Source of the DNA: Eximiradius sp.
GTDB taxonomy: Bacteria; Bacteroidota; Ignavibacteria; Kapaibacteriales; UBA2268
Direction: 5' to 3'
Length of the DNA: 64,000 nt
Assembly (NCBI GenBank): GCA_937127445.1
Contig: CAKZLY010000014.1
Span: 67,001 to 131,000 of the forward strand
The notes below the pieces were generated by a model that saw only the letters and a list, made by a program, of their open reading frames with translations, was not told where the DNA came from and searched no databases. Of this stretch, positions 5,114-26,667 are shown piece after piece; position 1 is the stretch's first letter, and each line of letters opens with the position of its first letter. Position numbers and translations under genes: made by a program.

Positions 5114-6993
5114 TGTTTCACGTGAAACATACAGATAACAAATTTGATGTAATCGTTGTCGGTGGCGGTCACGCCGGCATAGAAGCATCCTTTGTCGCCG
5201 CCAATATGGGGGCAAAGGTTGCACTTGTAACGATGAGCTTCCATACAATCGGTCGCCCATCTTGCAACCCGTCTATCGGCGGCACTGCCAAAGGACATCT
5301 TGTCAAGGAAATCGACGCATTGGGTGGCGCAATGGGACTCCTCGCCGACAAAGGTGGACTCCTCTTTAAAATGCTAAACCGTTCAAAAGGTCCTGCCGTT
5401 TGGTCCCCACGCACTCAAATCGACAAAGACCTTTATCCAAAATATGCTCTCGAATTGCTTCTGAAACAGCCGAATTTAACATTGATTAATGGAACTGTTG
5501 ATGAAATTATAATCGAAAAAGATAAAATAGTAGGAATAAAAACCAAATCAAACGAATATTTACAGGCAAAAGCAGTTATTCTATGCGCCGGAACATTTCT
5601 CAATGGCAAAATGTTCACCGGATTGGACGTAACCCTCGGTGGTCGTTACGGAGAACCAGCTTCGGACCGTGTGTCTGATTTACTTGCTGCTTACGGACTA
5701 GAAAAAGGGCGGTTGAAAACAGGCACCCCACCACGCGTTCACGCAAAGTCTATTGATTATAGTAAAACCGAATTAGCAGGCGGCGACGAACCACCCGAGC
5801 CGTTTTCTTTCCGCACACAAAAGGTAAAGAACCGCCTGATGTGTTTCGCAACAGCGACAACCGAACACACTCACGAAATTCTGCGAACGGGCTTTTCGCG
5901 TTCACCTATGTTTACTGGAAGAATTGAAGGAGTTGGACCCCGATACTGCCCATCTATCGAGGACAAAATCGACCGCTTCGCTGAGCGTGCGTCTCATAAA
6001 ATTTTGCTCGAACCCGAAGGGCTTCGCACTGAAAGCGTTTACGTGAACGGATTTTCTACAAGTTTGCCACGAGACGTTCAGGAAAAAGGTTTGCGAACTA
6101 TTCCTGGACTGGAAAGGTGCGAAATTCTTCGCTACGGATATGCTATAGAGTACGACTTTTTCTATCCATATCAATTGAAATACACATTGGAAACCAAGTC
6201 AATCGACGGACTTTTTTTCGCGGGGCAAATCAACGGAACTTCGGGCTACGAAGAAGCAGCAGCCCAAGGATTAGTCGCCGGGATAAACGCCGTTCTGAAA
6301 ATTCGCGGGGAAGGTGAATTCGTCCTTCGTCGCTCGGAAGCCTACATCGGCGTGCTTATAGATGACTTGATTAACAAAAATACGGAAGAACCATACAGGC
6401 TATTCACCTCTCTTGCAGAATACAGGCTGCTGCTGCGACAAGATAATGCTGCTTATCGCTTGATGAAATATGGCACTCAGCTCGGTCTTGTTCCACGTGA
6501 AACATTCGAGCGTTTTCAGAAAGAAGAGAATGCTTTGAAATACGCTTTCGAATTTTTCAAGAACACAAAACTGAAACCTAATGAAGTCAATGATTATCTT
6601 GTTTCTAATCGCGAAAATCCTATAAACGACGCTCAATCTATCTTTATTCTCGCTAAAAGGGAAAATACCGACATCCTAAAACTGGCAGAAATTGCCTCGC
6701 TTGATGATGCAGTGGTTCAAAAAGTGCTTTCATCCAAGCAATTGATAGAACAACTACGCACTGAAATAAAATACGACGGCTATATAGAACGCCAAAAACG
6801 CGAAATTGAGTATTTTCTGGGAAACGAAAATAAATACATCCCTGAAAGCATAGATTATTTCTCTATTCCTTCGCTTTCTAACGAAGCAAAGGAGAAACTT
6901 AGCCGCATTCGCCCGCGTTCGCTTGGTCAGGCATCCCGCATTGCAGGCGTTTCGGCTGCTGATGTCTCTGTTCTTTCTGTATATTTAAGATAA
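5113..6993 (+). CDS. mnmG: tRNA uridine-34 modification enzyme MnmG (GidA)
   Basis: A 626-residue FAD-dependent partner of MnmE. It shows the Rossmann motif VVGGGHAG near residues 15-22, the family signatures RYCPSIEDK and GQINGTSGYEEAAAQGL, and the normal C-terminal helical domain for MnmE and tRNA contact. The start is unusual: the ATG overlaps the mnmE stop, and the first six residues MFHVKH are encoded by a perfect parS palindrome (5114-5129), so the N-terminus is shaped by a DNA-binding site. A second parS match is inside the gene at 6489-6504. Neither rsmG (gidB) nor parA/parB follows, although these are frequent neighbours of mnmG near origins in other bacteria. Confidence 0.97.
   Translation: MFHVKHTDNKFDVIVVGGGHAGIEASFVAANMGAKVALVTMSFHTIGRPSCNPSIGGTAKGHLVKEIDALGGAMGLLADKGGLLFKMLNRSKGPAVWSPRTQIDKDLYPKYALELLLKQPNLTLINGTVDEIIIEKDKIVGIKTKSNEYLQAKAVILCAGTFLNGKMFTGLDVTLGGRYGEPASDRVSDLLAAYGLEKGRLKTGTPPRVHAKSIDYSKTELAGGDEPPEPFSFRTQKVKNRLMCFATATTEHTHEILRTGFSRSPMFTGRIEGVGPRYCPSIEDKIDRFAERASHKILLEPEGLRTESVYVNGFSTSLPRDVQEKGLRTIPGLERCEILRYGYAIEYDFFYPYQLKYTLETKSIDGLFFAGQINGTSGYEEAAAQGLVAGINAVLKIRGEGEFVLRRSEAYIGVLIDDLINKNTEEPYRLFTSLAEYRLLLRQDNAAYRLMKYGTQLGLVPRETFERFQKEENALKYAFEFFKNTKLKPNEVNDYLVSNRENPINDAQSIFILAKRENTDILKLAEIASLDDAVVQKVLSSKQLIEQLRTEIKYDGYIERQKREIEYFLGNENKYIPESIDYFSIPSLSNEAKEKLSRIRPRSLGQASRIAGVSAADVSVLSVYLR
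5114..5129. promoter_or_regulatory. parS: parS chromosome-partition site (ParB binding), perfect match
   Basis: TGTTTCACGTGAAACA is an exact 16-bp palindrome identical to the well-known chromosomal parS sequence bound by ParB/Spo0J. Flanking A and T extend the palindrome to 18 bp (5113-5130). It covers the second base of the mnmG ATG onward and encodes the end of M through FHVKH. ParB loads at such sites to build the partition complex near the replication origin. Confidence 0.92.
6489..6504. promoter_or_regulatory. parS: Second parS-like site inside mnmG
   Basis: TGTTCCACGTGAAACA differs from the 5114 site only at position 5, the position that is free in the published consensus TGTTNCACGTGAAACA. 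It lies in the MnmG C-terminal half, encoding part of GLVPRETF, a segment that is not strongly conserved in the family. That makes chance protein-coding constraint an unlikely explanation. Confidence 0.8.
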
Positions 6994-13818: not shown

Positions 13819-14763
13819 CTACCAAGGAAGATTGTCCAAATCAACATTTCCACCCGAAAGTATAATACCGACGCGACAACCGGCGAATTTTTCTTTTTCG
13901 GCAGCAACAGCAGCAAGTGCAGTAGCCGAGGACGGCTCGACAATGATTTTCATCCTTTCCCAAATTAATTTCATTGCGGAAATGATTGCCTGATCGTCGA
14001 CGGTAATAATATCCTGAACATTTTGCTTGATGATTGAGAAGGTAAGTTCAGAAAGCGTTGTGCGAAGCCCGTCGGCAACAGTATTCGCAATAATGCTTTC
14101 AACACGAACGCCCGAACGCAGCGAACGAGCAGCATCATCAGCACCCAATGGTTCTGCACCGAAGACCTTTGAGTTTGGAAGTAGCGATTTCGTAGCAATG
14201 GAAGTGCCCGAAAGTAGTCCACCACCGCCAACGGGTGCTACAACAGTATCGAGTGAACCCACTTCCTCGATAAGTTCAATTGCCGCAGTGCCTTGCCCGC
14301 AGATGATATTGAAATTATCGTATGGATGGACAAATATCGCCCCGCTTTTGCTAACGAACTGACGCAGAGTTTGCTCGCGGCTTTCGAGCGTGGGTTCGCA
14401 CAAAATTATATCGGCACCGTAGCCGGCGACAGCATTTTTCTTTACGTTTGGGGAATTGTTCGGCATAATTATCGTTGCTTTTGTGCCAAGCAGTTTGGCA
14501 GCCAAAGCCAGAGCCTGTGCGTGATTGCCCGAGGAATGAGTAGCAACTCCGTTGCGAAGCTGCTCGGGCGGAAGTGAAAGCAGGGCGTTAGTCGCTCCAC
14601 GAAATTTAAAAGCACCAACCTTTTGAAAATTCTCACACTTGAAGAAAACTTCGCAACCAAGCAATGAGTTCAGATAGTGTGAAGTTAACACTGGCGTTCG
14701 GTGGACGAACGGCTTAATTCGCTTGTGCGCTTCTTGGAGATGATTAATTTGTGGGATATTCAT
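13819..14763 (-). CDS. Threonine/serine dehydratase (PLP fold type II)
   Basis: A 314-residue PLP enzyme of the threonine ammonia-lyase/serine racemase group. The PLP lysine lies in KCENFQKVGAFKFRGA, the substrate loop is SSGNHAQALA, and the phosphate-binding loop is PVGGGGLLSG. There is no C-terminal ACT regulatory domain, so it resembles catabolic TdcB or serine racemase rather than full-length biosynthetic IlvA. It would form 2-oxobutyrate or pyruvate plus ammonia. It is the first gene of the run dehydratase-mntP-recG. Confidence 0.88.
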   Translation of the reverse strand: MNIPQINHLQEAHKRIKPFVHRTPVLTSHYLNSLLGCEVFFKCENFQKVGAFKFRGATNALLSLPPEQLRNGVATHSSGNHAQALALAAKLLGTKATIIMPNNSPNVKKNAVAGYGADIILCEPTLESREQTLRQFVSKSGAIFVHPYDNFNIICGQGTAAIELIEEVGSLDTVVAPVGGGGLLSGTSIATKSLLPNSKVFGAEPLGADDAARSLRSGVRVESIIANTVADGLRTTLSELTFSIIKQNVQDIITVDDQAIISAMKLIWERMKIIVEPSSATALAAVAAEKEKFAGCRVGIILSGGNVDLDNLPW

Positions 14764-15058
14764 TCCTCACCTTCTGTTTTCTACAAATTTAAGAAAATTA
14801 AATCGTTCAGGTTTAGAAAATAAATTATAAAATGATTAGAAAGGCGTATAGAAGGAGGAAAGAGGAATTAATATCGGAACCGAAGAGATGAAACTGCAAA
14901 TAGCCTTTAGCCTTTCGCGGCTTATTTGCTCAACTTCTTCGCATTTCTCACATTCTATACTCTCCTCATATCATTTTTGTTTTACAATCGTTTATATTAT
15001 TTCATTTATATTGTAAATTTTATTAATATTGTTAATTCTTGTTAATGTAAATGAGAAA
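14764..15058. other. Divergent intergenic gap, holds one imperfect hairpin
   Basis: A 295-base region between the divergently transcribed dehydratase and the lipoprotein gene, so both promoters should be here. No coding stretch or RNA gene was recognised. The most ordered segment is 14882-14940, where GCAAATAGCC and GGCTTATTTGC form the top of a long imperfect stem whose base is GAAGA/TCTTC-like. The remainder is AT-rich. Confidence 0.5.
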
Positions 15059-20917: not shown

Positions 20918-21955
20918 TTATTCTACAATATATTCCTCGCCGTGAATATCGCGGCGAACCTGAATATTGCCATCACCAAGAATATTGCGTAAATCTTCTT
21001 CCGCCGGTGGCAATACTTTATTATTATCCATATATTGTTTAAGTTCATCGTATGTGATTTGCTTGTATTTACCTTCTTCGGGGAAATATAAAGTAGAAAT
21101 CTGCTTGAAAATATCAACTTTTACAAGTTTTGCAAGACCTTCTTCTGTTTTAATGCGAGATTGTAGTTGTGGATAGTGCTTAAATGCTTCGCTGTATGTT
21201 TCAATTTCGTAAATAAGGCAACACTTTAATCTACCGCAGTAGCCGCTAAGTTTTGCAACATTGTTAGAAAGTTGCTGCAATCGGGCGTGTTCGAGTGTGA
21301 TATGATTAAAATCAGCCAGAAACGAAGTGCAGCAAAGGTTTAGCCCGCACGGACCGAAGCCTGCCCCCATACGTTTAGTTTCTTCGCGAGTGGAAATCTG
21401 ACGCAGCTCAATGCGAGTTTTGAAAACGCGCGCAAGTTCTTTAACAAGTTCACGAAAATCAATGCGTTGGGGTGCAGTGAAATAAATAGTTAAGCGTTGG
21501 TGGTCAAGTTGCCACTCAGCTTCGGTAACCTTCATATCTAGTTTAAATTGCTCAACAAGTTCACGAGTTTTTCTCACCACCGAAGGTTCTTCGGCAGTAT
21601 TTGTGAAGTAGCGTTCAAGGTCCTCGTCGCTTGCTTCGCGAACTACTTTGTATTTAATCGAACGTGCTTTGTGGCAACAGCGAACACGAGCTTTAGCCGA
21701 AGCACCAATATAGGTAACAATGCCTAAATCAACGCCATTTTCGGCTTCTACAACTATTTTATCGTCGGGCTGAATAGTATCGAAGCCCGTAGAAATATAA
21801 AAGCCACGCCTATTGCCTTTGAAAAGAACTTCTACAATATCCTCATTTGCAAGAATTTCTTGAATATTCTGAACGTTTTCGATGATTCTATTGTCGCCGT
21901 TTGTTCCGTTATTTGCGTGGTTATTCCCACTTTGATTTATCTCATTTAATTCCAT
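20918..21955 (-). CDS. ricT: PSP1-domain protein RicT (YaaT-like)
   Basis: A 345-residue PSP1-domain protein. The conserved cysteine pairs occur in CGLNLCCTSFL and GYCGRLKCCLIYE, characteristic of RicT/YaaT, which in Bacillus joins RicA and RicF in an Fe-S complex affecting RNase Y and phosphorelay signalling. No ricA or ricF homologue is near, and in this lineage the protein is known only as a conserved PSP1 protein, so the Bacillus role should not be carried over without proof. A GGAG Shine-Dalgarno lies 5 bases before the ATG. The gene starts at the edge of the candidate origin region. Confidence 0.88.
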   Translation of the reverse strand: MELNEINQSGNNHANNGTNGDNRIIENVQNIQEILANEDIVEVLFKGNRRGFYISTGFDTIQPDDKIVVEAENGVDLGIVTYIGASAKARVRCCHKARSIKYKVVREASDEDLERYFTNTAEEPSVVRKTRELVEQFKLDMKVTEAEWQLDHQRLTIYFTAPQRIDFRELVKELARVFKTRIELRQISTREETKRMGAGFGPCGLNLCCTSFLADFNHITLEHARLQQLSNNVAKLSGYCGRLKCCLIYEIETYSEAFKHYPQLQSRIKTEEGLAKLVKVDIFKQISTLYFPEEGKYKQITYDELKQYMDNNKVLPPAEEDLRNILGDGNIQVRRDIHGEEYIVE

Positions 21956-22183
21956 TAACTCTCCAGATAAAAATCTATATCTATATTAATTAAAATAAAT
22001 GAATAATTATTGAAAAAAATTAACTTTTAATATACAATTAAGTTTGTTAAAATGCAAATTTACAAAAAAATGAGATTATAAATGAAGGGATGAATTCGAA
22101 ATGATGTAAAGTCACACACAAATTGCAAAGGTTTGTTTATTTTATATCGCTACGAATTATCACGAAGTTTTTATTAAATCTTA

Positions 22184-22478
22184 TGTTGATAATTCTTCTA
22201 ATAATATTATTATATATTTATATATTCCTTTATTATTATTTATTATGTTTGTGGAAAAGTGTAAAAAAAATGCTTGACAAACATCTAAAACTATGAAATA
22301 ATTTGGATTAGAAAATTGAAAATTATTGATATGTGTGTATAAAACTATAGAATTTATTAACAAAATATTCACAAAAAATTGTCCTTATGTGAAAAAAATT
22401 ATTTGGACTAAATAAATTTGTGGAAAAGTTCGTTTTATTAACAGAAGAAAATGTAGATTGTTAAAAAATTGTTGATAA
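22184..22478. other. oriC: Candidate chromosomal replication origin (DnaA-box cluster, AT-rich)
   Basis: Within the 574-base gap between divergent ricT and rpiB lies a very AT-rich tract with a cluster of DnaA-box-like 9-mers (consensus TTATNCACA). A perfect one, TTATACACA, is on the minus strand at 22334-22342. Single-mismatch copies are at 22184-22192 and 22470-22478 (TGTTGATAA on plus), 22250-22258 and 22419-22427 (TGTGGAAAA on plus), 22354-22362 and 22435-22443 (TTATTAACA), and 22365-22373 (ATATTCACA). TTTGTGGAAAAGT repeats at 22248-22260 and 22417-22429. The stretch 22196-22246 is nearly pure A/T and could be the unwinding element. There is no dnaA next to it. Support comes from two parS sites 17 kb away; a GC-skew switch is needed to confirm. 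Confidence 0.6.
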
Positions 22479-22529
22479 TTTTATTAAAAAAAGTTATAAA
22501 AATTATAATAGTATAGGAATAAAGAATTT

Positions 22530-22970
22530 ATGAAAATAGCGATAGCATCAGACCACGCAGGATATAATTATAAAAAAGAATTATCAATATTCTTGAAAGA
22601 ATTAGAGCAACAAGTGCTGGATTTTGGGACTTTTTCGGAAGAAGCAGTTGATTATCCAGACTTTGCTTTTCCAGCAGCGGAAGCAGTTGCAGGAAACATT
22701 GCAGACTTCGGAATTTTGATTTGCGGAACAGGAGTTGGAATGGCAATAACAGCAAACAAAGTAGTAGGAATACGTGCGGCAAATTGCACATCTGTCGAAA
22801 TGGCAGAGATGGCACGCCGCCACAATAACGCAAATGTGCTCGCTCTTGGTGCAAGAATAACAGATTTATCGCTCGCAAAGGAAATTGTGAAAACTTTCCT
22901 CTTTACTGAATTTGAAGGCGGTCGCCATATGATTAGGATTGAGAAAATTCACTCAATTACAGGCAATTAA
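22530..22970 (+). CDS. rpiB: Ribose 5-phosphate isomerase B
   Basis: A 146-residue RpiB of the RpiB/LacAB family, interconverting ribose 5-phosphate and ribulose 5-phosphate. It opens with IAIASDHAGYNYK (substrate Asp-His) and has the active-site cysteine in CGTGVGMAITANK and the RRHNNANVLALGAR segment that binds phosphate. The stop codon is immediately followed by the bshB1 ATG, so the two are co-transcribed. The gene faces away from the AT-rich candidate origin. Confidence 0.95.
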   Translation: MKIAIASDHAGYNYKKELSIFLKELEQQVLDFGTFSEEAVDYPDFAFPAAEAVAGNIADFGILICGTGVGMAITANKVVGIRAANCTSVEMAEMARRHNNANVLALGARITDLSLAKEIVKTFLFTEFEGGRHMIRIEKIHSITGN

Positions 22971-25395: not shown

Positions 25396-26667
25396 TTATT
25401 TAAGCAAGTTTTGAATGTAGAGTTCCTCTATTCCAATCTCATTTTGCAGGAAAGTTCTGATTTCGTCGCGTTCGTGAGGCTTAACGACAGAAGAAAAGCC
25501 TTGTTCGTCGCGCGAAACAAAGTGAATATTCTCTATTCCAGCGTATTTAACTATTTCGGGGTTGTGTGTGCTGAGTAAAATTTGCTTATGTTGCGAGCAT
25601 TCCTTCATCATTTCGATAACTTTCGAAATTAAATAAGGATGGATGCGTCGCGCGGGTTCTTCGAATATTACGAATTTTTTATGTTCGAAATACAAAACAA
25701 TTACGATTGCTATAATGAAGAGCGAACCGCTCGACATAAGAGAGGCAGGCAGAAACTTATCTTTGACGTAGGATTCTTTCACTTTCAGCTGCAAATATCT
25801 GTCTAAAAATTTATCAACTTCGAATTCTTCGATAAATGGCAAAAGATACTGCAACAAATTGAACAAAGTGCGAGCTTTTTCAGGATTGGAAAGTATGCGT
25901 TTAAGCACGATGGCAAGATTTTCTCCGTTTTCTTCGAGTTCGGCTTTGCCTGCGATTGAGGTTACGCTTTTGGGCTGGTTTGGGTCTAAATCGTAAATAG
26001 AAATATCGCCGATTGCTTTGCGGACGCTATCGGGGTGTGGCATATAATACTGATTTTCGATGAACAGTGTTTCGTTCAGCTTCGATTGTTCTGAATATGA
26101 ATTAATATCAAGATAAATGGATGGCAGCAAATCTTCTTTCGAAAGAGGGATTTCGCCGTCTTTTGTATAATCGATAGAGAAATTTCCGTTATTGTTCGAG
26201 ATTGTGAGTTCACTATGCCCGATAATATGTTCAGTGTTCGAGCTGTCGCGCATCAAAAAGAAGTCGAAATTCTGTTTCAGAACGTTATGGACAACGCGGT
26301 ATTGCTCGTTGTTGTCGAAAAATTCAAGTACAAACTCGTGTTCGAACCAGCTTGGCTTAATTCCTATTGTTCCGTGAGGCATCGTTTTGATTGGACGAAT
26401 TTTTTTGAATGGTTCAACTTCAATTTTCAGAGACATATATTTTTCGCTATTGCCCAAACTCAAATTACGTAAGTATTCCACTCCGCCTTGCATAGAAATA
26501 GCGTTGTCCAGGCCTGACTGCACAATATCGCGAAGGAAACGAAATATTGAGATTAAGTTCGATTTTCCAGCCGAGTTTGGGCCAATCATCACATTGAACT
26601 TCCCCAGCTCTAATTTGAGCTCCTTGAAACTTTTGAAGTTGGTAAGTTCAATTTTCTTAATAATCAT
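25396..26667 (-). CDS. RecF/OLD-like AAA ATPase (AAA_21/COG4637-like), partner of TOPRIM protein
   Basis: A 423-residue ABC-type ATPase without a membrane domain. It begins IKKIELTNFKSFKEL and has Walker A GPNSAGKS (29-36), a signature region LMSSGSLFIIAIVIVLYFEH, Walker B FVIFEEP (332-338) followed by the D-loop-like RRIHP, and the switch His in STHNPE (366-371). The middle is a variable insertion without recognised domains. ATPases of this kind pair with TOPRIM nucleases in OLD, Gabija, PARIS and AbiL systems; here the TOPRIM partner is encoded two bases downstream. It starts exactly next to the S41 protease stop on the same strand, so transcription may be shared. Confidence 0.75.
   Translation of the reverse strand: MIIKKIELTNFKSFKELKLELGKFNVMIGPNSAGKSNLISIFRFLRDIVQSGLDNAISMQGGVEYLRNLSLGNSEKYMSLKIEVEPFKKIRPIKTMPHGTIGIKPSWFEHEFVLEFFDNNEQYRVVHNVLKQNFDFFLMRDSSNTEHIIGHSELTISNNNGNFSIDYTKDGEIPLSKEDLLPSIYLDINSYSEQSKLNETLFIENQYYMPHPDSVRKAIGDISIYDLDPNQPKSVTSIAGKAELEENGENLAIVLKRILSNPEKARTLFNLLQYLLPFIEEFEVDKFLDRYLQLKVKESYVKDKFLPASLMSSGSLFIIAIVIVLYFEHKKFVIFEEPARRIHPYLISKVIEMMKECSQHKQILLSTHNPEIVKYAGIENIHFVSRDEQGFSSVVKPHERDEIRTFLQNEIGIEELYIQNLLK

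Follow-up and report, generated by a model that had tools for sequence, protein, structure and literature searches.

The stretch of DNA analysed in this work (hereafter the window, 64,000 nucleotides) corresponds to bases 67001-131000 of the 328-kb contig C14 in a genome of 2.45 Mb assembled in 35 contigs. It contains a group of DnaA-box-like sequences in a gap between two divergent genes, and dnaA itself is located on contig C7. The locus raises the question of whether a chromosomal replication origin (oriC) can be recognized here without the adjacency of dnaA. Comparative sequence analysis makes it highly probable that this genome, of a Candidatus Kapabacteria bacterium, has its oriC in the gap upstream of rpiB.

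The DnaA-box cluster upstream of rpiB

The gap is flanked by ricT on the minus strand and rpiB on the plus strand, the latter followed by bshB1. It is intergenic and about 80% AT, in agreement with the divergent, very AT-rich setting indicated in the preliminary description, and an Rfam search of the gap returned no RNA family. Among named matches, those closest to RicT (92-93% identity) are MAGs that carry the labels Bacteroidetes, Ignavibacteria and Candidatus Kapabacteria. Roughly 3 kb separate the proposed origin from an AAA ATPase gene at window positions 25396-26667, whose product resembles MAD3 of the methylation-associated defence system, with a match below the NCBIfam cut-off. The genes and elements of the locus are listed below in window coordinates.

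20918-21955, minus strand: ricT (RicT/YaaT, PSP1), adjoining the gap in this genome only
22184-22529, no strand: proposed oriC, AT-rich intergenic DnaA-box cluster, from the outermost box to the last base before rpiB
22184-22192, minus strand: DnaA box TTATCAACA, 6 of 9 columns invariant in the genus
22188-22250, no strand: candidate DNA-unwinding element, holding the least stable 50-mer of the 64-kb window
22230-22241, minus strand: AAA/TAA trinucleotide run resembling DnaA-trios, its reading direction pointing away from the box at 22250; conservation across the genus is not strict
22250-22258, minus strand: DnaA box TTTTCCACA, adjoining the candidate unwinding element, 9 of 9 columns invariant
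22274-22302, plus strand: candidate sigma-70-like promoter TTGACA-17-AATAAT directed at rpiB, read from the alignment, with TTGACA invariant in 4 species of the genus
22334-22342, minus strand: DnaA box TTATACACA, the sole perfect TTATNCACA match, not kept in three sister species
22354-22362, plus strand: DnaA-like box TTATTAACA, invariant in the genus
22365-22373, plus strand: DnaA-like box ATATTCACA, at most one mismatch to TTATNCACA
22388-22396, minus strand: DnaA box TTTTTCACA, invariant in the genus
22419-22427, minus strand: DnaA box TTTTCCACA, 8 of 9 columns invariant
22435-22443, plus strand: DnaA-like box TTATTAACA, invariant in the genus
22470-22478, minus strand: DnaA box TTATCAACA, invariant in the genus
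22530-22970, plus strand: rpiB, ribose-5-phosphate isomerase B, the gene with which the cluster stays linked

Both strands of the 295-base gap at 22184-22478 were searched for sites with at most one mismatch to TTATNCACA, and nine were found, one perfect and eight with a single mismatch. The perfect box was therefore as originally reported, and the seven single-mismatch boxes given at that time became eight upon recounting. Sites on the minus strand start at 22184, 22250, 22334 (the perfect TTATACACA), 22388, 22419 and 22470, and those on the plus strand at 22354, 22365 and 22435. When TTATCCACA with one mismatch was used as the query, five minus-strand sites were obtained, and their spacings of 66, 84, 85 and 51 bases reproduced the values previously noted.

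Dinucleotide shuffles of the gap returned a mean of 1.07 TTATNCACA sites and a maximum of 6, close to the one chance match that had been estimated, and nine or more sites occurred in 0 of 2000 shuffles. An equal box density in other AT-rich gaps had been named in advance as grounds for rejecting the origin; the other AT-rich windows of the 328-kb contig (295 bp, AT of at least 0.72, the site itself left out) carried 0.49 sites on average and 4 at most. A stricter box set, TTWTNCACA or TTWTCAACA counted per 450 bp, gave six boxes at the gap and nowhere else three or more in the 1.14 Mb searched, about half of this genome.

In nearest-neighbour stability calculations, no 50-mer of the window was less stable than the one starting at 22197, which falls between the 22184 and 22250 boxes. 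Next to the latter box, AAATAATAATAA runs from 22241 on the minus strand; it resembles DnaA-trios, for which at least three trinucleotides with a central A are expected within 16 bp of a box, and it is degenerate in the sister species.

Conservation, linkage to rpiB and distance from parS

The RicT proteins of three other species of the genus share 92-93% identity with the one encoded here, but on the ricT side the alignment ends at window positions 22075-22094, and in place of the gap these species have leuS or a different gene. Upstream of rpiB, the G001-G003 sequences align from window positions 22168, 22183 and 22198 on, with the entire cluster included, and a glutamine cyclotransferase gene occupies the far side of the cluster. 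Since the ricT alignment stops before the cluster and the alignment upstream of rpiB spans it, the cluster goes with rpiB and not with ricT. Of the ricT-rpiB landmark initially proposed, the linkage to rpiB was thus borne out, and the ricT half was lost to the synteny break between ricT and the cluster. Two places in the window show broken synteny within the genus: 22075-22184, where the proposed origin borders on the ricT side, and about 14.8-14.96 kb (14763-15029). To the left of the proposed origin, blocks differ in orientation or position from one sister species to another.

Within the alignment of four species of the genus, 91% of the columns are invariant inside ten box-like sites, compared with 68% elsewhere. 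The sister species keep the sites at 22250, 22354, 22388, 22435, 22459 and 22470; they do not share the perfect box at 22334. Beyond the genus, most genera of the family that were examined carry two to six boxes upstream of rpiB, with one box in G063; in G024 just 15 bp of sequence upstream of rpiB could be read. The sequence beyond the far side of the cluster varies among the family relatives. Boxes upstream of rpiB were absent from the readable members of genera g9, g23 and g5 and from other families of the order.

The parS motif TGTTNCACGTGNAACA occurs twice in this genome, both times within the window and 16-17 kb from the gap, so that the two parS sites announced at 17 kb were located at 5114 and 6489:

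5114-5129, no strand: parS, perfect TGTTTCACGTGAAACA, at the start of mnmG
6489-6504, no strand: parS, TGTTCCACGTGAAACA, inside mnmG

Comparison of rpiB and parS positions showed both on the same contig, within about 40 kb of each other, in 15 relatives (G002, G003, G008, G012, G014, G019, G020, G021, G026, G027, G035, G063, G070, G073 and G074), many other members being too fragmented for this distance to be judged. Among single-contig genomes, G067, without boxes at rpiB, has more than 500 kb between parS and rpiB, and in G037 the cluster is absent and rpiB lies far from parS. The closeness of rpiB and parS alone proves nothing, since G045, from another family, has rpiB 12 kb from parS and no boxes. 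Along contig C1 of G067, parS, mnmG, dnaA and rpiB are all far apart, and the origin of this genome seems to have been moved or rearranged. As regards the parS sites themselves, pairs at or within mnmG are found in the genus (window positions 5114-6504), and pairs closely bracket mnmG in G035, G020, G008, G012 and G021.

Strand composition and the dnaA locus

Skew was measured at four-fold degenerate sites and corrected for gene strand. It was used in place of the raw cumulative curve of contig C14, which is dominated by gene direction and by a strong negative tract. On contig C1 of the relative G020, the corrected skew turns from negative, over the roughly 45 kb that precede the rpiB gap, to positive beyond it; the minimum of the raw cumulative GC curve falls at 144,488, about 1.5 kb from the gap at about 142.9-143.3 kb (permutation p 0.0055). 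The nearly complete relative G035 has a skew too weak to be used.

The clean GC-skew minimum anticipated at the site was not seen in this genome, where the skew of contig C14 is mixed, anomalous and decides neither way. The corrected values are about -0.15 over the first 60 kb, around 0 at 70-150 kb and about -0.3 beyond 153 kb, with only a small local rise or inflection near the proposed origin at 89.2 kb; a conventional right arm would have the opposite sign beyond 153 kb. In G003, synteny is broken at the point that corresponds to this change at 153 kb. An assembly chimera there was considered as an explanation for the unusual skew and is unlikely, since G002 has the junction uninterrupted.

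This block has an unchanged orientation in G001 and shows positive skew there; it shares a contig with ricT and mnmG and lies to their left. As mnmG is linked to the origin in G002 and G003, we infer that the block is situated to the left of the origin in G001. The present genome has it, with negative skew, on the right-hand side of the proposed origin. At four-fold degenerate sites, the 153-328 kb portion of contig C14, beyond the window, displays a strong excess of C over G and of T over A on the strand of rpsL, tuf and rpsK. On contig C14, rpsL, tuf and rpsK are directed away from the proposed origin and are carried by the C-rich strand. On contig C11, rplA and five tRNAs also lie on the C-rich strand; atpD and rpsB do not lie on that strand. 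Most tRNAs in the skewed pieces, and both large ribosomal gene groups found, are on the C-rich strand. Overall, gene direction agrees with the G-rich strand in 53% of cases, which is uninformative.

For this genus a C-rich leading strand, the reverse of the situation in G020, is possible; it would reconcile most of the skew data, the weakly negative first 60 kb of contig C14 excepted. The fuller proposal, that the left flank of the genus origin has been repeatedly rearranged up to the box cluster and that C, not G, is in excess on the leading strand, is put forward tentatively and is rather doubtful.

On contig C7, the corrected skew is uniformly positive over 80 kb including dnaA, without any switch. 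No box cluster was detected at dnaA in the 18 dnaA loci examined, the maximum being two boxes per 450 bp. Solved DnaA structures align with the DnaA protein encoded here along almost the full length, DNA-binding domain included; the protein carries GGRDHSTVLH, and its DNA-binding domain is normal.

Alternative explanations, proposed initiation and known systems

The reading of the gap as an origin without dnaA is supported by the conservation of the rpiB-linked cluster in the genus and most of the family despite changed neighbours. It is further backed by the uniqueness of the cluster in 1.14 Mb, by parS near rpiB in many relatives, by dnaA loci lacking a cluster and by the skew switch of G020 at the equivalent gap. 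The excess of boxes over chance, the low-stability 50-mer between two boxes, the normal DNA-binding domain of DnaA and the direction of rpsL, tuf and rpsK, leading away from the site, also speak for an origin. Against it stand the irregular skew of this genome, the unusable skew of G035 and the loose conservation of the trinucleotide run. Clusters of DnaA boxes outside oriC exist in other bacteria, as in datA and DARS, and the gap might accordingly be a site that titrates or reactivates DnaA, with oriC elsewhere. This alternative would fit the lack of a clean skew at the site in this genome, but we regard it as unlikely: a second cluster is absent from the 1.14 Mb and from dnaA, an AT-rich unstable element lies between the boxes, parS is close across the family, and the G020 switch occurs at the equivalent gap. 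The boxes might instead be operators for DnaA control of rpiB-bshB1 transcription, as suggested by the conserved promoter-like element TTGACA-17-AATAAT lying inside the cluster and directed at rpiB. However, nine boxes over about 300 bp exceed the needs of a DnaA-regulated promoter, and this explanation, which leaves both the proximity of parS and the G020 skew switch unaccounted for, is very unlikely to replace an origin; an operator role could nevertheless exist in addition to the origin role.

An origin at or near dnaA on contig C7 would correspond to the usual arrangement, in which oriC adjoins dnaA (PMC10225481), but the single skew sign across 80 kb of that contig and the failure of any 450-bp stretch among the 18 dnaA loci to hold more than two boxes make it extremely improbable. 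Even less credit can be given to a chance product of AT-rich sequence. The gap is indeed rich enough in AT to invite this explanation, but none of the 2000 shuffles reached the observed count, other AT-rich windows average 0.49 sites and the boxes are kept across species.

Taking the gap as the origin, we infer that DnaA binding, melting and initiation occur there. DnaA, encoded elsewhere, would bind the array of mostly same-direction boxes. The same-direction boxes flanking a very unstable stretch suggest assembly of DnaA followed by melting of 22188-22250, so that a DnaA oligomer would open the DNA between the two leftmost boxes. The helicase would then be loaded at the melted stretch and forks would leave in both directions, while ParB bound to the two parS sites in mnmG, at a distance of 16-17 kb, would separate the new origins.

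Such an origin would provide a family of uncultured Kapabacteria with rpiB as an indicator gene, of use for orienting genomes, for estimating growth rates from coverage ratios and for spotting misassemblies. It would also be a case of an origin that keeps its link to a single gene despite reshuffling on the opposite side. Among the papers searched, none described a link of Kapabacteria or rpiB to oriC.

The basal origin unwinding system (BUS) consists of a DnaA box and DnaA-trios (PMC8287927, PMC6669920). A TAA/AAA run in the gap, beginning within 10 bases of the 22250 box and on the box strand, recalls this arrangement; however, the trios are degenerate in the sister species, and AT-rich sequence easily yields such runs. 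A DnaA-trio step after the 22250 box, as in the BUS model, is therefore offered as a suggestion only, because the trinucleotide run is degenerate in those species. With bacterial oriC in general, the gap has in common its intergenic and AT-rich nature, the box array, the unstable stretch beside a box and the vicinity of parS, whereas dnaA is not adjacent and rpiB is the linked gene. A nearby parS is usual and an adjacent dnaA common for bacterial origins, but neither defines them. The boxes of the gap are mostly TTTTCCACA, TTATCAACA and TTATTAACA, compared with the TTATCCACA of bacterial oriC. Origins away from dnaA are known, and other genes serve as their indicator genes (Ori-Finder 2022, PMC10225481). 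The gap resembles these origins in having dnaA elsewhere and differs from them in having rpiB as the linked gene.
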